Below, piece after piece: positions 7,589-14,610 of a DNA stretch of 24,896 nt (position 1 is its first letter; each line of letters starts with the position of its first letter). The notes beneath the pieces were generated by a model, which worked only from the letters and a program-made list of their open reading frames with translations, was not told the DNA's origin and did no database searches. The stretch is from an uncultured Lysobacteraceae bacterium. GTDB lineage: Bacteria; Pseudomonadota; Gammaproteobacteria; Xanthomonadales; Xanthomonadaceae. Both the position numbers and the translations under genes were made by a program. The stretch is from the NCBI GenBank assembly GCA_946480825.1, contig CAMLLG010000060.1, forward strand, positions 1 through 24,896, given 5' to 3'.

Positions 7589-8899
7589 ATGAAGGTTCTG
7601 GTCATCGGTTCGGGCGGTCGCGAACACGCCCTCGCCTGGACGCTCGCGCGCTCCCCGCGCGTCGACGAAGTGATCGTCGCGCCCGGCAACGCCGGCACCG
7701 CGACCGAAGCGAAATGCCGCAACGCCGACGTGAAGGCGACCGATCCCGACGCGCTGGTCGCGCTGGTGCGCGCCGAAGGCGTCGGCGTCACCGTCGTCGG
7801 TCCGGAAGGTCCGCTGGTCGCCGGCGTGGTCGACCGCTTCCGCGCCGAGGGCCTGCGCATCTTCGGGCCCACCGCCGCCGCCGCGCAGCTCGAAGGCAGC
7901 AAGGCGTTCGCGAAGGACTTCCTCGCCCGCCACGGCATTCCGACCGCGCATTACGCGGTGCATACCGATCTCGATGCGGCGCTGGCCTACCTCCGCGACA
8001 AGTCCATCGAGAGCGGGGGCGCGCCGATCGTGGTGAAGGCCGACGGTCTGGCCGCGGGCAAGGGCGTGATCGTGGCGATGACGCTCGACGAAGCCGAAGC
8101 CGCGGTGCGCGACATGCTGTCCGGCAACGCCTTCGGCGATGCCGGCTCGCGGGTGGTGATCGAGGAATTCCTCGACGGCGAAGAGGCCAGCTTCATCTCG
8201 ATGGTCGACGGCGTCACCGCGCTGCCGATGGCGACATCGCAGGACCACAAGCGCGTCGGCGACGGCGATACCGGTCCGAACACCGGCGGCATGGGCGCGT
8301 ATTCGCCCGCACCGGTGGTCACACCCGAAGTGCACGCGCGGATCATGCGCGAGGTGGTGGAGCCGACCGTGCACGGCATGGCCGCGGACGGCGTACCGTT
8401 CACCGGATTCCTCTACGCCGGACTGATGATCGACGCGACCGGCGCGCCGAAGGTGATCGAATTCAACGTGCGCTTCGGCGACCCGGAAACGCAGCCGGTG
8501 ATGCTGCGCCTGCAGTCGGACCTGCTGGATCTGGTGGATGCGGCCATCGACGGACGCCTGCATGCGGTCGAAGCGCGCTGGAATCCGCGGCCGTCATTGG
8601 GCGTGGTGATGGCGGCTGCGCACTATCCCGACGCACCGCGGACCGGCGACGCGATCGCGGGCCTCGACGCGACGCTGCCGATGGACACGAAGGTTTTCCA
8701 CGCCGGCACCCGTCTCGACGAGACCGGCCGCGCGCTCACCAGCGGCGGTCGCGTGCTGTGCGTGTGCGCACTGGGCGACACCGTGGCCGAAGCCCAGCGG
8801 CAGGCGTATGCGGCGGTCGAAACGATCCACTGGGACGGCGAGTTCCACCGCACCGACATCGGCTGGCGGGCGATCGCGCGCGAGCGCATCGCCCGGTAG
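7589..8899 (+). CDS. purD: Phosphoribosylamine-glycine ligase (GAR synthetase)
   Basis: The 436-residue product has the usual length. It joins phosphoribosylamine and glycine with ATP hydrolysis to make GAR, the second step of purine synthesis. The N-terminus has MKVLVIGSGGREHALAW. The ATP-grasp core shows LEGSKAFAKDFL, VVKADGLAAGKGV, IEEFLDGEEASF, DHKRVGDGDTGPNTGGMGAY and EFNVRFGDPETQ (metal and ATP ligands). All motifs are intact. The start at ATG 7589 has TGAGGA about 8 bases upstream. It closes the same-strand run that begins with purH. The stop codon TAG (8897-8899) lies inside the left arm of a 28-bp inverted repeat, so the repeat writes the last codon and may also act as transcription terminator. 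Confidence 0.97.
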   Translation: MKVLVIGSGGREHALAWTLARSPRVDEVIVAPGNAGTATEAKCRNADVKATDPDALVALVRAEGVGVTVVGPEGPLVAGVVDRFRAEGLRIFGPTAAAAQLEGSKAFAKDFLARHGIPTAHYAVHTDLDAALAYLRDKSIESGGAPIVVKADGLAAGKGVIVAMTLDEAEAAVRDMLSGNAFGDAGSRVVIEEFLDGEEASFISMVDGVTALPMATSQDHKRVGDGDTGPNTGGMGAYSPAPVVTPEVHARIMREVVEPTVHGMAADGVPFTGFLYAGLMIDATGAPKVIEFNVRFGDPETQPVMLRLQSDLLDLVDAAIDGRLHAVEARWNPRPSLGVVMAAAHYPDAPRTGDAIAGLDATLPMDTKVFHAGTRLDETGRALTSGGRVLCVCALGDTVAEAQRQAYAAVETIHWDGEFHRTDIGWRAIARERIAR

Positions 8900-8970
8900 A
8901 GCGGCCTTCAGGCCGCTGCTTCACAAAGACGATGCGCGATCAAAGCAGCGGCCTGAAGGCCGCTCTACCG
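8894..8970. repeat. Perfect 28-bp inverted repeat (REP-like pair) at the purD end
   Basis: Arms 8894-8921 and 8943-8970 are exact reverse complements with a 21-base spacer. Each arm is itself near-palindromic around GCGGCCTTCAGGCCGC, so either a large cruciform or two small hairpins can form. The left arm covers the purD stop codon, and the right arm ends 8 bases before the stop of the convergent HTH gene, so the element can serve as a bidirectional terminator. I recall TAGAGCGGCCTTCAGGCCGC-type repeats as common in xanthomonad genomes. Confidence 0.9.
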
Positions 8971-8978
8971 ACGCATGC

Positions 8979-9383
8979 TCAGCGGCTTTTCTTCGCGGCC
9001 TTGCCGGTGGCGTGCTGCTTGCCGAGTTCGTCGATCAGGCTGCGCACGAGTTTGCGCTGCGAGGCGGGCAGCTTCAGGAAGGCTTCGATGGCGAGCTGAT
9101 CGTGCGGGTTCAACCGCCACTCGCCGCGATTCTCGCGCACGCGCTTGTCGTCGCCGAACTGCAGCTGCTGCGGCTCGATCGACAGCATTTTCGCGAGGGC
9201 GCGCATGTTGCCCTGCCGCGGCATGGCGCGACCGTTGAGCCAACCGGACACGGCCTGCTGGGAGACGGGCTCGCCGCCGAAGCGGGCGAGCAGCCGCACC
9301 AGTTCGGCCGGACTCTCGCTCATGCCTGCCTGGCGCAGCGCGGCCCGGAGGCGGTCGCTGAAAGCATCTTGTTCCGTTTTCAT
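8979..9383 (-). CDS. Helix-turn-helix regulator, copy A of a tandem pair
   Basis: The product has 134 residues. A Cro/C1-like helix-turn-helix lies near residues 35-70: GGEPVSQQAVSGWLNGR is the turn and recognition helix, and MRALAKMLSIEPQQL continues the domain. A C-terminal domain with GEWRLNPHDQLAIEAFLKLP ends in a basic tail (GKAAKKSR). It is a close paralogue of the gene just upstream, with most residues identical and one gap after the GDD motif. I infer a small DNA-binding regulator; its target is unknown. A 15-base element shared with copy B sits 5 bases before the ATG. It is convergent with purD across the inverted repeat. Confidence 0.85.
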   Translation of the reverse strand: MKTEQDAFSDRLRAALRQAGMSESPAELVRLLARFGGEPVSQQAVSGWLNGRAMPRQGNMRALAKMLSIEPQQLQFGDDKRVRENRGEWRLNPHDQLAIEAFLKLPASQRKLVRSLIDELGKQHATGKAAKKSR

Positions 9384-9388
9384 GCGCC

Positions 9389-9441
9389 GACCTTAGGCCG
9401 GCGTCGCGTCCGATGTGAAAATCGCGGTTGTCGATCACATC
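9389..9441 (-). promoter_or_regulatory. Upstream region of HTH copy A with shared element and inverted repeat
   Basis: 9389-9403 (GACCTTAGGCCGGCG on the plus strand) matches 9918-9932 before copy B at 13 of 15 bases and at the same distance from the ATG. GATGTGA (9412-9418) and TCACATC (9435-9441) form a perfect 7-bp inverted repeat with a 16-base spacer, half-sites 23 bases apart centre to centre. This is suitable as a dimer operator two helical turns long; the regulator is not known. Confidence 0.4.
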
Positions 9442-9516
9442 CAATCCGTGTTGTGACGGAACAGATTCGTGGATTCGCGCGACCTCCGGACCGCGCAAGC
9501 TGTCAGATGAGGCAGG

Positions 9517-9912
9517 TCAGGTTTTTTTCGAACTTGTGGACGACTTCACGAATTCGTCGATGAGATGGCGCAACAGCTTGCGCTGCGCGGGCGGCAGCTG
9601 CACGAAAGCCTCGATGGCCAGCTGATCGCGAGGATCCAGCCGCCATTCGCCGCGGGATTCGCGCACGCGCTTGCCGTCGTCGCCGTACTGCAATTGCTGC
9701 GGCTCCATCGACAACATCTTCGCGAGCGCTTTGAGATTGGCCTGCCTTGGCATGGCGCGCCCTTTCAGCCAGCCGGAAACGGCTTGCTGGGAGACGGGCT
9801 CGCCCCCGAAACGGGCGAGCAGACGGACCAGCTCGACCGGACTTTCGCCGAGACCCGCCCGTTGCAAGGCAGCGCGCAGCCGTTCGCTGAACGCGGATTG
9901 TTCATTCCTCAT
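9517..9912 (-). CDS. Helix-turn-helix regulator, copy B of a tandem pair
   Basis: The product has 131 residues from ATG 9912-9910. A GTG immediately before it could also start, but ATG aligns with the start of copy A. It shares FSERLRAAL, ESPVELVRLLARFGGEPVSQ, QAVSGWLKGRAMPRQ, ALAKMLSMEPQQLQYGDD and EWRLDPRDQLAIEAF with copy A. The helix-turn-helix is therefore the same, with some recognition-region changes (LNGR to LKGR, GNMR to ANLK). Only the C-terminal tails differ clearly; this one ends KSSTSSKKT, encoded across a run of seven A. It is divergent from the degenerate Res-like gene, so it is the better candidate for controlling it. Confidence 0.85.
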   Translation of the reverse strand: MRNEQSAFSERLRAALQRAGLGESPVELVRLLARFGGEPVSQQAVSGWLKGRAMPRQANLKALAKMLSMEPQQLQYGDDGKRVRESRGEWRLDPRDQLAIEAFVQLPPAQRKLLRHLIDEFVKSSTSSKKT

Positions 9913-10016
9913 CACCTGACGTTAGGCCGGTGCACGCCGGCGTTGGAAAGATATGATTTGTACCGTATCAAACTTTTTGTTAGTTTGCACGACAGGGGAA
10001 ATCACGGAGGACGGGG
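9913..10016. promoter_or_regulatory. Divergent control region between HTH copy B and the Res-like gene
   Basis: This 104-base gap is clearly more AT-rich than its surroundings, particularly 9945-9990. It contains the element shared with copy A (9918-9932) and a hyphenated palindrome CAAACT-N7-AGTTTG at 9969-9987. GGAGG at 10006-10010 is a strong ribosome-binding site for the plus-strand gene. I could not fix -10/-35 boxes with confidence. The position suits an operator for the neighbouring regulator. Confidence 0.5.
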
Positions 10017-12596
10017 ATGTCGACGGCATGGGACGGACAGGACGGGCGCTGCGGCACGCAGCATCACGACAACGCATGCGAGTGCGCGGCGCGGGAGGAC
10101 ACGGCACGCGCGCCCGCGGCCGACCCGGGCGATGACGCGCGCGCGAACGATCGCCGAAACCCATGCTGCGGAGCTTCGGACACGAAACTGTCGGGCACGA
10201 CTCCGACAGGCACGATCCTGAGAGGCACGATCCCGACAGGCACCATCCCGACAGGCACGATCCCGACAGGCACGATCCCGTCGAGCACGCCCCCGCCGGG
10301 CACGACGGCGCCCGTGCGGCGCATCGCAGCGAAACCTGCCGCGCGGCACGAACCCTCGCGGCGCGCGCGCATGCAGGACGGCCCGGCGCTGCATGCCGCG
10401 CTCGACTATCGCGCGCGCCGGCTCTGCACCGCCATCGATGCGCGCGGCGGCAACGTCGCGGACGGCGCCCTGCTCGATCGGCTGCGTCCCGCCGGCGCCC
10501 TGCTGCTGCGCTGGTGGTGTTCCGCCACGGCCTGCCGCATGCGCGTGGACAATTTCAATGCGGTGCAGCGTCAGGCGCTGCTGCATGCGCTGCTCGCGCA
10601 CGACATCCTGCGCAGCGACGATCCCGGCCAGTTGTACCGTCGCGCCTGCGATCCGCGGTCGTTCGATGACGACGACCGCATCGACGACGACGCCCACCAC
10701 CGGCTGCGGCTGGCGCCGGGCAGCGGCCTGCGCTGGGTGCTGCAGGCACTGCTGGTCTGGCGGTGGGCGGATGCCCACGATGCATCGCAGCCCGCCCCAT
10801 CGCCCGACGTCGCGGAATTCGTGCTGGTCGCGGCCACGCCCGCCCTCGCGCGCGGGTTGCGCGCGGCGCTGCTGGGCGATGCGCATGCCGCGGGCGACGG
10901 TTCCGGCCATGCGTCCATCGACGAGAGCAGCCTGCTGCGGCATGCCCGGCTGTTCCTGCCGCCCGCGCTGCGCGCGCCCTTCCGCGCCTGGCTGCAGGCG
11001 CAGCGCGACGGCGCCGGGGCGCTGCGCATCCTCGACACGCGCGACGCGGCCATGGAGATGCCCGACGGCGCCGCACTCCGGCTGATCGCGAAACGCGTGC
11101 GGAACCCGGACGACGCGACGACATGCACGACAAGACGACTGCGGATCGATCTGCACGTCGCGATGGACATGATTCCGGAGACGGATGCCGACGCCTCGGC
11201 CGTGACCGCGCTCGCCGACGTGCCTCTCGCACAGGCGATCCTTCGCGGCGCCTGCAAGCTGCCGGTGCTCGAAGCCGTCGATATCCGCGGCCTGCCGCTG
11301 CGCACCAGGCCGTCCCGGCGGACGGGCCTGCGCCCGCGGCTGTCGCGCGCGCATCGCCGCCTGCTCGCCGCAGGCCTGCGCGGGTTGCGGCAACGCGAGG
11401 ACGGCTTCGTCGCGCTCGACCCGGCGCGACGTCCACGCATGCGCGTGCTGTGCACTTCGCCGCTGCTGATGCGTGCGGCGCGGCGCTGGCTGATCGACGC
11501 GGGCGTCGGCGACGACGCGATCGCCGTCGGCGAGGTTGCGGAGCCGGACGCATGCACGCCGGGCGATGCCGCAGGGGGCGGTGCGGTGCGCGCCCATCTC
11601 GTCCTCGTCGACGACGCGGCTGTCGACGATGCGCCTGTCGAGTCCGGCCTCTGCGACGCACGCATCTGCGTCGTCGTGGTGTTGCGGACCGATCGCGTCA
11701 CCGCCGCGCGCCGCATCGCGACCATGGCCGCGGTGGCCGGCGCGGCGCTGCTGTGGCCGGAGCCGGACTTCGCCGACCTGCGCAGCGAGAACGTCGAGCG
11801 CGCCGTACTGGATCGGGCGCCGCGCCATCTCATCGACGCCCTGTCGATCGTCGACGATCCGCGTTGTTTCGACCAATACGCCGCCCTGCCGTCCGCGCAC
11901 GGCACGACCGCCGACCTGCCGGCCACGGACGATCTGTTCGCGACGCCGCTGCGCGAGGACGCCGCCGCGTTCGACATGCCGCTGCCGGCGCCGTGCGGGG
12001 AATCGCCGCGCATCCCGCCCGAACGGCTGAGCGATCTTCCGCGACGGATCCTGCGCGCGCGCCATGCGCTGCCGGTCGCCAAATCGGTGCACGCGCATGC
12101 GCCATGCAGCGCGCTCGACAGCGGCCTGCGCCGCGCGCTGCTGGAATGCGCGGAAGCGGACCCGGCGATCGACAGCCACTGCCTGCTCGATCCGCGGCGC
12201 CACGGCGCTCACGGGCGCGAGGCATGGCTCGCGCAATGCGCATCGAGCGGCGCATCGATGGGCACATCATCGATAGTCACACCGATGGGCACAGCGTCGG
12301 GCACGATCGACGCGCGCGGCTGGCCGGACGCGCTGGTGCGAACGGCGGATCGGATCTATCTGGTCGAACTGCTGCCGTTCTGCCCCGCCGCGCCGCACGC
12401 GCCCGGCCCGTCGGAGCGCGCGATGCTGCACTGGCTGCGACAGCTCGATGCGCGCCCGCCCGACCAGCGCGGGCATCGTCGCTGGTGCCGGGCGCCGCTG
12501 CCCGCCCCGCTGTTCTGGTCCTGGAAACGCAGCGGCGGCGCACTGTCCACGCTGCTGTCGATGCTGGCGGACGGCGGCAGGCGGCGCGACGGCTGA
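10017..12596 (+). CDS. Degenerate type III restriction (Res-like) helicase-nuclease homologue, catalytic motifs lost
   Basis: The product has 859 residues from ATG 10017, with GGAGG 6 bases upstream. From memory of Res-type restriction subunits, the order of segments fits. RLAPGSGLRWVLQALLVWRW (231-250) occupies the Walker A place, but GSGKT is replaced by GSGLR. FVLVAATPALARGLRAALL is the next strand. PLAQAILRGACKLPVL (403-418) resembles the DYPLxxAIxxGIVKxPVL segment. MRVLCTSPLLMRAARRWL lies in the motif IV place. PEPDFADLRSENVER (581-595) and DALSIVDDPRCFDQY (607-621) match the segment after motif VI. WPDALVR...YLVELLPF (769-788) matches the nuclease core, with the E-x-K lysine replaced by Leu786. 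No DEAH box or QxxGRxxR was found. Residues 60-98 are a GTIPT repeat. I infer a non-catalytic DNA- or protein-binding role, not a restriction enzyme. No modification (Mod) gene is next to it. Confidence 0.75.
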   Translation: MSTAWDGQDGRCGTQHHDNACECAAREDTARAPAADPGDDARANDRRNPCCGASDTKLSGTTPTGTILRGTIPTGTIPTGTIPTGTIPSSTPPPGTTAPVRRIAAKPAARHEPSRRARMQDGPALHAALDYRARRLCTAIDARGGNVADGALLDRLRPAGALLLRWWCSATACRMRVDNFNAVQRQALLHALLAHDILRSDDPGQLYRRACDPRSFDDDDRIDDDAHHRLRLAPGSGLRWVLQALLVWRWADAHDASQPAPSPDVAEFVLVAATPALARGLRAALLGDAHAAGDGSGHASIDESSLLRHARLFLPPALRAPFRAWLQAQRDGAGALRILDTRDAAMEMPDGAALRLIAKRVRNPDDATTCTTRRLRIDLHVAMDMIPETDADASAVTALADVPLAQAILRGACKLPVLEAVDIRGLPLRTRPSRRTGLRPRLSRAHRRLLAAGLRGLRQREDGFVALDPARRPRMRVLCTSPLLMRAARRWLIDAGVGDDAIAVGEVAEPDACTPGDAAGGGAVRAHLVLVDDAAVDDAPVESGLCDARICVVVVLRTDRVTAARRIATMAAVAGAALLWPEPDFADLRSENVERAVLDRAPRHLIDALSIVDDPRCFDQYAALPSAHGTTADLPATDDLFATPLREDAAAFDMPLPAPCGESPRIPPERLSDLPRRILRARHALPVAKSVHAHAPCSALDSGLRRALLECAEADPAIDSHCLLDPRRHGAHGREAWLAQCASSGASMGTSSIVTPMGTASGTIDARGWPDALVRTADRIYLVELLPFCPAAPHAPGPSERAMLHWLRQLDARPPDQRGHRRWCRAPLPAPLFWSWKRSGGALSTLLSMLADGGRRRDG
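10194..10313 (+). repeat. 15-bp in-frame tandem repeat, about eight units
   Basis: Units of GGCACGATCCCGACA start every 15 bases from 10194; units at 10224 and 10254 are identical and the last two are diverged. They encode the GTIPT string near residues 60-98 of the Res-like protein, a flexible spacer between a Cys-rich N-terminus and the helicase-like region. A degenerate GGGCAC-rich echo appears near 12257-12315 in the same gene. Confidence 0.85.
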
Positions 12597-12690: not shown

Positions 12691-14610
12691 ATGGCCTACA
12701 ACCAGTTCGAATTGTTGCGGCAGCGCCGCTTCCTGCCGTTTTTCGTGGTTCAGTCGCTGGGCGCGTTCAACGACAACGTCTACCGCCAGGCGATCATCGG
12801 CATGCTGTTCTGGATGGGCGTGCCGATCGAGGAGCGCACGCTCTACACCAATCTCGCGCCGGCGCTGTTCATCCTGCCGTTCTTCCTGTTCTCGGCGACC
12901 GCCGGCCAGATCGCGGAGAAGCTGGAGAAGTCGCGACTGATCCGCATCACCACCACCATGGAAATCGCGATCATGTCGGTCGCGGGTCTCGGCTTCCTCC
13001 TGCAGAACATGCCGCTGCTGCTGGTGGCGCTGTTCGGCACCGGCCTGCAGTCCGCGCTGTTCGGGCCGGTGAAGTACTCGATCATGCCCTCGGTGCTCAA
13101 GCCCGAGGAACTCACCGGCGGCAACGGTCTGGTCGAAATGGGTACTTCGATGTCGATCCTGACCGGCATGATCGTCGGCGGCCTGATCTTCACCCTCGCC
13201 GGCGACCAGGGCCCGGTCGCCGCGGCCAGCGCGATCGTGGCGCTAGCCATCACCGGCAATCTGGTCAGCCGGATGATTCCGCCGGTGGACGCCGGCGCCC
13301 CGGACCTCAAGGTCCATCTCAATCCGATCCCCGAGTCGCGGCGCGTGCTCAAACTCGCGCGCCGGCAGCCGGCGGTGCGCAACAGCATGCTCGGCATCTC
13401 GTGGTTCTGGTTCTTCGGCACCGTGCTCACCGCACAGTTGCCGACCTATGCGGAACTGCATCTCGGCGGCGACCAGCGGCTGTATCTGCTGGCGTTCGCG
13501 CTGTTCTCGGTCGGCACCGGCGTCGGGTCGCTGCTGTGCGAAAAGCTGTCGGCGCGCACGGTCGAGATCGGCCTCGTGCCGCTGGGCGCCTTCGGCATGA
13601 GCGCGTTCCTGCTCGATCTGTACTTCGCGCGCACCGGCGCGCCGCCGGCCACCGGCCTGACCGTCGCGCAGTTCCTCGATCATCCCGGCGGCTGGCGGAT
13701 CGCGATCGATCTCACCGGCATCGGCCTGTTCTCCGGCCTGTTCCTGGTGCCGCTGTTCGCGCTGATCCAGAGCCGCACGCCGCGCAGCGAACTGTCGCGG
13801 GTGATCTCCGCGGTGAACATCCAGAACGCGTTCTTCATCGTGCTGGCCGCGGTGCTGGCGATCGCGCTGCAGATGGAACGGGTCACCCTGGGCGGTATCA
13901 CCGTGCCGATGCCCGGCCTGAGCATTCCGCAGTTGTTCCTGGCGCTGGCCGTCGCCAACACGCTGGTGGCGATGTGGATCTTCACCCTGGTGCCGGAATT
14001 CCTGATGCGCTTCCTCAGCTGGGTGCTGGTGCGCGCGCTCTACCGGCTGCGCCTGCACGGCATCGAGAAGCACATCCCCGACGAAGGTCCGGCGCTGATC
14101 GTGTGCAACCACGTCACCTACATGGACGCGCTGGTGCTGTCGGCCAGCATTCCGCGCCCGGTGCGCTTCGTGATGTATTACAAGATCTTCAACATCCCGG
14201 TGATGCGCTGGATCTTCCGCACAGGCAAGGCGATTCCGATCGCCGGCGCGAAGGAAGACCCGGTGGTGATGCGGCAGGCGTTCGAGGACGTGGACGCGGC
14301 GCTGGCCGACGGCCAACTGGTGTGCATCTTCCCCGAGGGCGCGCTGACCCGCGACGGCAACATCGCGCCGTTCAAGGCCGGCATGGAGCGCATCCTCGAA
14401 CGCCGGCCGGTGCCGGTGGTGCCGATGGCGCTGAAACACATGTGGACCAGCATGTGGAGCCGGCGCGACGGTCGCCTCGGCCGGATGCGGGTGCCGCGAC
14501 GGTTCCGCGCGCACGTCGAAGTGGTGGCGGGCGAACCCGTCGACGGCCGCCAGACCGGCGCGGCGATGATGGAAGCGAAAGTCCGCGCGCTGCGCGGGGA
14601 CGACGCCTGA
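12691..14610 (+). CDS. MFS transporter fused to 1-acyl-glycerol-3-phosphate acyltransferase domain
   Basis: The product has 639 residues. The first 440 or so form an MFS-type multi-helix domain that begins like LplT (FFVVQSLGAFNDNVYRQAI, FGPVKYSIMP). LplT-like proteins flip lysophospholipids across the inner membrane. After LRLHGIEKHIPDEGPALI comes a PlsC-type acyltransferase domain with the NHxxxxD block NHVTYMD at residues 473-479 and FPEG at 547-550, both intact. The expected activity is re-acylation of lysophospholipid or lysophosphatidic acid on the cytoplasmic face. Larger relatives add an AMP-dependent acyl-ACP ligase; that domain is absent here and the gene ends cleanly. GGAG 5 bases before ATG 12691 supports the start. 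The substrate is inferred from the family only. Confidence 0.9.
   Translation: MAYNQFELLRQRRFLPFFVVQSLGAFNDNVYRQAIIGMLFWMGVPIEERTLYTNLAPALFILPFFLFSATAGQIAEKLEKSRLIRITTTMEIAIMSVAGLGFLLQNMPLLLVALFGTGLQSALFGPVKYSIMPSVLKPEELTGGNGLVEMGTSMSILTGMIVGGLIFTLAGDQGPVAAASAIVALAITGNLVSRMIPPVDAGAPDLKVHLNPIPESRRVLKLARRQPAVRNSMLGISWFWFFGTVLTAQLPTYAELHLGGDQRLYLLAFALFSVGTGVGSLLCEKLSARTVEIGLVPLGAFGMSAFLLDLYFARTGAPPATGLTVAQFLDHPGGWRIAIDLTGIGLFSGLFLVPLFALIQSRTPRSELSRVISAVNIQNAFFIVLAAVLAIALQMERVTLGGITVPMPGLSIPQLFLALAVANTLVAMWIFTLVPEFLMRFLSWVLVRALYRLRLHGIEKHIPDEGPALIVCNHVTYMDALVLSASIPRPVRFVMYYKIFNIPVMRWIFRTGKAIPIAGAKEDPVVMRQAFEDVDAALADGQLVCIFPEGALTRDGNIAPFKAGMERILERRPVPVVPMALKHMWTSMWSRRDGRLGRMRVPRRFRAHVEVVAGEPVDGRQTGAAMMEAKVRALRGDDA

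Follow-up and report, generated by a model that had tools for sequence, protein, structure and literature searches.

Genes for restriction-modification (R-M) are usually thought of as being gained, active and lost. The gene considered here, which we call pseudo-Res, lies in a stretch of 24,896 nucleotides from an uncultured Lysobacteraceae bacterium (GenBank assembly GCA_946480825.1, contig CAMLLG010000060.1, positions 1 to 24,896 of the forward strand; hereafter, the window). Its closest described relative is Res, the restriction half of type III R-M systems (PF04851; PADLOC REase_III; NCBIfam NF046055, the BPTD_3080 family; EcoP15I Res), with which it shares ancestry, the collinear arrangement of RecA1, RecA2 and a putatively nuclease-like C-terminus, and the presence of a helix-turn-helix (HTH) neighbour and an operator. 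It differs in having lost the Walker A Lys and Thr, the DEAH box, the SAT motif, motif VI, the ExK Lys, four blocks of sequence, and Mod, the modification partner.

Several other systems are comparable in part, as far as the available portions of the cited articles describe them. R-M controller (C) proteins, for example C.Csp231I (PMC3115060, PMC4321490), are likewise small HTH proteins encoded beside R-M genes; unlike them, the HTH genes at this locus, hth1 and hth2, are tandemly duplicated, encode 132-134 amino acids and stand beside a dead enzyme, and their operator binding is putative. Utp25, a superfamily 2 (SF2) pseudohelicase, is likewise helicase-related but serves as a ribosome-assembly factor in the small subunit (SSU) processome and has no R-M origin (PMC9539457). 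The catalytically inactive long-B prokaryotic Argonautes are also a defence nuclease family kept without catalysis; they work with distinct effectors (PMC10620215), whereas no effector gene was recognised beside pseudo-Res. Orphan (solitary) methyltransferases represent one R-M half kept alone, but there it is the modification enzyme that is kept and here the restriction half without its chemistry (PMC12707154). Pseudoenzymes and orphan methylases are already known, but the literature searched contained no case of a dead Res retained across a genus: the listed titles and abstract beginnings of open-licence PubMed Central articles yielded no description of a dead or domesticated type III Res, and in PMC12707154 the strings "pseudogene", "domesticat" and "decay" have 0 occurrences.

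Comparison of sequences identifies pseudo-Res as the restriction half, Res, of a type III HTH-mod-res system, stripped of Mod and of its ATPase and nuclease residues. Throughout one genus its frame has stayed open and constrained, and its site is fixed, next to an HTH gene that has been duplicated and behind a putative operator like that of intact systems. The analysis suggests that a gutted restriction enzyme, together with a doubled and preserved control switch, has been given a new job. That the gene has been domesticated is very probable in our judgement, and it is probable that the product is a non-catalytic pseudoenzyme under a private autoregulator.

The kinship with Res, which a sequence-only reading of the window had proposed, surfaces only through relatives of the protein and not in direct library searches, as neither the window protein nor its family alignment gave a significant match in Pfam, NCBIfam, PADLOC or the PDB sequences. 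With residues 120-859 as the query, 110 proteins matched at E<=1e-3 among 7990 scored candidates; 109 of them make up the motif-less family, and the remaining one, P0111, is a type III Res of 991 amino acids carrying PF04851. In BLASTP, pseudo-Res and this intact Res align in three collinear segments (E=1e-22, 2e-16 and 1e-14), and common ancestry extends over most of the length of pseudo-Res. Foldseek ranks EcoP15I Res (4zcf_C) first among PDB structures, at only E=4.8e-3, and the model has the two RecA-like lobes of the SF2 helicase fold. Matches to viral structures were SF2 helicases, one of them at E<=0.001, and added little, and the C-terminus modelled alone gave a weak model, with weak fold evidence as to the alpha-beta-beta-beta-alpha-beta core of PD-(D/E)XK nucleases. 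Similarity to Res and SF2 helicases was thus seen at the level of sequence, profile and fold, and the proposed family link stands. In a quick Res tree, which carries long-branch and composition warnings, pseudo-Res forms one clade (support 100), joined by the relics described below (97) and adjoining the intact Lysobacteraceae Res (100); the intact group as a whole is supported in this position, and the Res of G012 as specific sister is not.

A search with P0111 returned 3754 matches; among the 120 listed, G[TS]GKT is found in 118, DEAH in 120 and QxxGRGxR in 120, and PDF followed by ExK in 115 when a wider regular expression is used (a narrow ExK expression caught 55). One member of the dead family, P0007, comes from Lysobacter hankyongensis. 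Two others, P0085 and P0093, are labelled in databases along the lines of "type III restriction enzyme" or "antitoxin ... of toxin-antitoxin stability system", probably by misannotation.

Motif columns were read from an alignment to P0111 of the window protein and 109 further family members (110 sequences in all), and from a second alignment that adds 24 intact Res, in all of which (24/24) every motif residue checked is kept. The sequence-only reading had described GSGLR in place of GSGKT at residues 235-239, and the column of the P-loop Lys indeed holds Lys in 0/110 sequences (62 Leu, 15 Gly, 13 Ala, others), with Arg in 109/110 and one gap in the Thr column; intact Res have K and T in 24/24. 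Neither GxGK[TS] nor DE[AC][HD] matches any of the 110, and the columns of the DEAH box, also reported as missing, are gaps in 109/110 (P0111 alignment) or 72-93/110 (second alignment) and never read DEAH. Motif III columns are not SAT, and those of motif VI are mostly Ala or Pro. The absence of QxxGRxxR ahead of PEPDFADLRSENVER likewise holds, the single match (1/110; P0097, position 82) lying in the tail, outside the place of the motif. VELLPF occupies residues 783-788, so that Leu786 falls in the column of the ExK lysine, as had been proposed; this column has Lys in 0/110 (50 Leu, 34 Gln, others), the ExK expression matches 0/110, and the nuclease Asp and Glu are retained in 81/110 and 53/110, respectively, against D, E and K in 24/24 intact Res. 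No orthologue with intact motifs, of the kind expected if this copy were merely decaying, occurs among the 110.

One part of the earlier description, that the protein is full length, did not survive. Relative to the 24 intact Res (G012 numbering), approximately 238-333 (with the DEAH box), 351-362 (motif III), 482-503 and 641-804 are missing and a low-complexity head of ~120 amino acids has been added; pseudo-Res is therefore gutted. The head (residues 1-120) is modelled with a mean predicted local distance difference test score (pLDDT) of 28-42 in blocks of 10. Of the 353 columns conserved in intact Res the family retains 73, and other columns are newly fixed, for example Thr>Arg239, Phe>Trp325 and Leu>Arg460. 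The C-terminus is basic and aromatic, with R821, W823, F833, W834, K837 and R838 invariant in 40 sequences.

When an enzyme has lost its chemistry, a slowly decaying pseudogene should be considered, particularly at 74% guanine-cytosine (GC) content, where stops are rare and a dead gene long looks open. Pseudo-Res evolves fast, and long shadow frames are common, among them an antisense frame of 744 amino acids; three of the 11 genes have, besides the coding frame, two more that are stop-free. Against decay stands the coding frame itself, which has 0 stops in 11/11 genes (the window and 10 genomes, leaving out the split gene of G010; sharing ancestry, these are not independent trials), whereas between 0 and 17 stops fall in the other frames, and no stop lies inside the pseudo-Res match in any of 11 genomes. 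In simulations on the window core, 25% neutral change introduced a mean of 6.3 stops and left 0/300 runs stop-free, and 10% change introduced a mean of 2.6 and left 7.7% of runs stop-free. Third positions diverge most in every region when compared with L001, the C-terminus being the most constrained (0.13/0.10/0.31 for the three codon positions). The ratio of nonsynonymous to synonymous divergence (omega), calculated on coding segments cut from stop to stop with some upstream sequence included, is 0.45, 0.36, 0.45 and 0.33 in four close pairs (neighbours 0.03-0.23) and 0.58 and 0.47 in two more distant pairs (neighbours up to 0.38). The uninterrupted 2.6-kb frame and its ribosome binding site are as first described: 10017-12596 translates without a stop into 859 amino acids, and GGAGG lies at 10006-10010, 6 nucleotides upstream of the ATG. 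GC by codon position (0.76/0.59/0.86) is near that of neighbouring known genes (purD, 0.74/0.50/0.88).

Since the frames are open in 11 genomes and omega is 0.33-0.45 in close pairs, mere decay is unlikely; the frame is neither interrupted nor neutral, and we regard a decaying pseudogene as very improbable. The proposal that this is a repurposed pseudoenzyme and not a decaying gene is well supported by constraint (omega below 1 in the pairs compared), by open frames and by the family-wide loss of motifs.

The initial genome scan found 10 pseudo-Res loci, all in Lysobacterales, with which an eleventh genome, G023, agrees. Among 297 genomes of the family Lysobacteraceae, in each of which the top 3 candidates were scored, 19 gave a match, comprising 11 with pseudo-Res, six with an intact Res, one with a RecA1-only relic (G282), and one (G287) with a distant Res that has its own Mod. 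All 11 sampled genomes of one genus carry pseudo-Res and 0/286 of the other sampled family genomes do; these 11 are exactly the genus of G001, the nearest relative of the window. Where the flanks reach, the gene order is purD, HTH genes (minus strand), pseudo-Res, and a fusion of a major facilitator superfamily (MFS) transporter with an acyltransferase. In 10 genus genomes for which all candidates were scored, pseudo-Res is the sole profile match (in G010 in two contig pieces). No methylase was found among 20 window frames scanned or at the loci of the relatives, and no Mod orthologue in the 11 genus genomes, which gave only short generic methylase matches.

Two HTH genes are present in 11/11 genus genomes, divergently paired with the R-M gene as controller genes are. 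In G003, hth1 (L003 8873-9269) is split over two short frames that overlap, perhaps through a frameshift or an error of assembly. Between the HTH genes and pseudo-Res lies a candidate operator/promoter region of 47 bp, nearly identical in close species and recognisable in 12/12 sequences compared. Aligned without gaps to the HTH-mod region of intact systems, it matches G238 at 31/47 positions (0/20000 shuffles as good) and G114 at 26/47 (3/20000), and it matches the relic locus of G282 at 21/47 (189/20000); the shuffles preserved single-base content only, and the choice among 3 offsets was not made anew for each. The region was also seen, without a score, in G158 and G209. A 25-base operator site (<=3 mismatches) occurs once per genome in the seven genus genomes searched, which did not include G006, G007, G009 and G010, whose operators differ more; the HTH proteins therefore seem to have no other target. 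With 16 bases and <=2 mismatches, 5 further weak operator-like sites appear, in two genomes. A sigma-70 scan of 9380-10060 gave no promoter-like site. In a tree of 37 HTH proteins, which leaves out the G158 HTH (very long branch) and the split hth1 of G003, the proteins encoded next to gutted genes group together with 100/100 support.

Intact type III systems are rare (6/297 family genomes), and a divergent HTH relative stands ahead of mod in 6/6 of the intact loci read. In G012, the system occupies the very same site, with purD, one HTH gene, a 648-amino-acid N6/N4 methylase, a 980-amino-acid Res with its motifs, and the MFS-acyltransferase gene; the other five have an HTH-mod-res unit, with no purD or MFS gene in the 17-19 kb read, and the Mod of G063 is split into two pieces. 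The simplest history is that mod was lost and res was gutted under the old operator.

The opposite half can also be found dead at this site. Reading the 8.1 kb upstream of the MFS gene in 40 of the genomes that have an MFS match but not pseudo-Res revealed no Res; HTH genes were seen in G084, G049 and G064, the last having an HTH gene alone. In G049 and G084 the HTH gene is accompanied by a gutted Mod (BLASTP 2e-25 and 3e-31 to the Mod of G012), in the alignment of which the DPPF and FGGSG motifs are gone. Gutted Mods occur in 5/297 family genomes, always in the order HTH, gutted Mod, MFS, and three of the five frames are open from the probable start. At a different site, with secA nearby, the relic of G282 also has a divergent HTH gene; of its five relatives (P0231-P0235), the three that were read have neither P-loop nor DEAH residues, and P0236-P0238 retain GTGKT.

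Several observations weigh against this account of preservation and shared origin. Nonsynonymous divergence (dN) of pseudo-Res is 0.18-0.27 and that of its neighbours 0.01-0.10, a difference of ~2 to 18 times within a pair, so that constraint can only be called moderate, and the head is nearly free to change (0.53/0.48/0.62 versus L001, the least constrained region). Two of the five gutted Mods contain one interior stop, and the site can therefore also simply decay. The operator likeness is weaker in G012 (21/47, 509/20000 shuffles as good), and the HTH tree places the HTH proteins of G012 and G064 on its other side, so that separate insertions at one site may have occurred. Absences from whole genomes rest on the top 3 or 4 candidates scored per genome.

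With respect to function, the HTH proteins may behave like R-M controller proteins, occupying the one private operator and thereby fixing how much pseudo-Res is made. Pseudo-Res retains two RecA-like lobes and a putatively nuclease-like C-terminus and would be expected neither to burn ATP nor to cut, so its action would have to rest on binding to DNA or to protein. Its likeliest task would be to bind and spoil active R-M complexes or phage anti-restriction factors as a poison subunit or decoy, which is favoured because either half occurs dead under the same HTH clade; any single binding role is nevertheless doubtful. As a poison subunit, a dead Res would capture the Mod of incoming type III systems related to it (and a dead Mod their Res), blocking assembly and attack on the chromosome. 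We consider this less likely than not: dead forms of both halves are known from this one site, each under HTH proteins of one clade, pseudo-Res is the sole profile match in ten genus genomes and Mod orthologues are missing from 11, but Res block 641-804 is deleted and, intact systems being rare anyway, their absence proves nothing. The broader proposal, of a Lysobacteraceae module in which a private autoregulating HTH accompanies a dead type III half (Res; elsewhere Mod or a RecA1 stub) that would disarm R-M or anti-restriction factors by binding, is unlikely to hold as a whole.

Rapid divergence under constraint and a divergent autoregulator with a private operator would also fit a guard or decoy that captures anti-restriction proteins or DNA intermediates of phages, an event that the HTH pair would sense and answer with altered expression. 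With no second effector gene recognised at the locus and no further operator site (<=3 mismatches) in 7 of 11 genomes, such a role seems improbable. The dead helicase/nuclease body might instead clamp DNA with the HTH proteins as a structural co-regulator, for example at its own promoter; its conserved basic/aromatic C-terminus and constant pairing with HTH genes are consistent with this, but there is only a single operator site, and we give this idea little credence. Finally, the HTH pair could be the selected element and pseudo-Res a tolerated leftover, as the lower omega of the HTH genes (0.03-0.16 in close pairs) and the solitary HTH gene of G064 might indicate. This is quite unlikely, given that pseudo-Res frames are open and biased by codon position and that the bases from the HTH start to pseudo-Res are conserved in 12/12 sequences compared, though the ribosome-binding stretch varies.

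What makes the locus useful is that one chromosomal site presents a range of states across a family, namely the complete system, one or the other half gutted, an HTH gene alone, and no R-M gene, with a gutted Res in every sampled genome of one genus and its controller doubled. Whether a restriction enzyme can be domesticated once its chemistry is gone thereby becomes directly testable. We advise caution during annotation: databases list such genes as "hypothetical protein" or, incorrectly, as "type III restriction enzyme".

Table 1. Features of the pseudo-Res locus (window coordinates) and of related gutted genes elsewhere (locus coordinates)
Feature	Position	Strand	Remarks
Pseudo-Res gene	10017..12596	+	859 amino acids; gutted type III Res; Res homology, motifs lost family-wide
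N-terminal head, residues 1-120	10017..10376	+	low complexity, GTIPT-type repeats, low model confidence, nearly unconstrained
Walker A remnant P-G-S-G-L-R-W, residues 234-240	10716..10736	+	T-G-T-G-K-T-W in intact Res
PEPDFADLRSENVER, residues 581-595	11757..11801	+	next block past motif VI of intact Res; the motif is lost here
Pseudo-nuclease C-terminal region, residues 661-859	11997..12593	+	most constrained part; PDALVRT / VELLP replace PDF...ETK
Divergent operator/promoter region (putative), 47 bp	9943..9989	.	conserved; resembles HTH-mod intergenic region of intact systems
hth2, XRE-type helix-turn-helix	9517..9915	-	adjoins pseudo-Res; ATG at 9912 likely; HTH_3 E=8.9e-6
hth1, tandem duplicate of hth2	8979..9383	-	HTH_3 E=1.7e-6
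purD	7589..8899	+	left boundary of site
MFS transporter-acyltransferase fusion	12691..14610	+	right boundary; match in 98/99 family genomes, some partial
Gutted type III Mod	L082:6397-7980 (G049); also L073, L089, L090, L092	+ (L082)	same site, divergent HTH
RecA1-only dead Res, 342 amino acids	L040:9312-10340 (G282)	+	GAGTI for GTGKT, VAGR for DEAH

The antisense frame mentioned above (10002-12236) was rejected as a gene, having no Pfam match and missing the usual third-position GC peak. Within the head of pseudo-Res, a GGCACGATCCCGACA-type unit (GTIPT) is repeated at 10194-10289, and a similar GT-rich stretch occurs in the C-terminus at about 12243-12308, which L001 does not have.

The space between purD and the MFS gene ranges from 43 bp to 6.9 kb in 24/40 genomes in which both genes were seen (L048-L087). 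Among the genes that fill it are FUSC-like transporters (of which two were scanned), a Schlafen-g3 helicase in G056 and a frame of 850 amino acids without a Pfam match (L079:149-2701:-). Given these varied sizes and fillers, the site may be an insertion hot spot. Directly after purD, at 8899-8970 of the window, there is an inverted repeat of ~20 bases (GCGGCCTTCAGGCCGC type) that resembles a repetitive extragenic palindromic (REP) element or a terminator.

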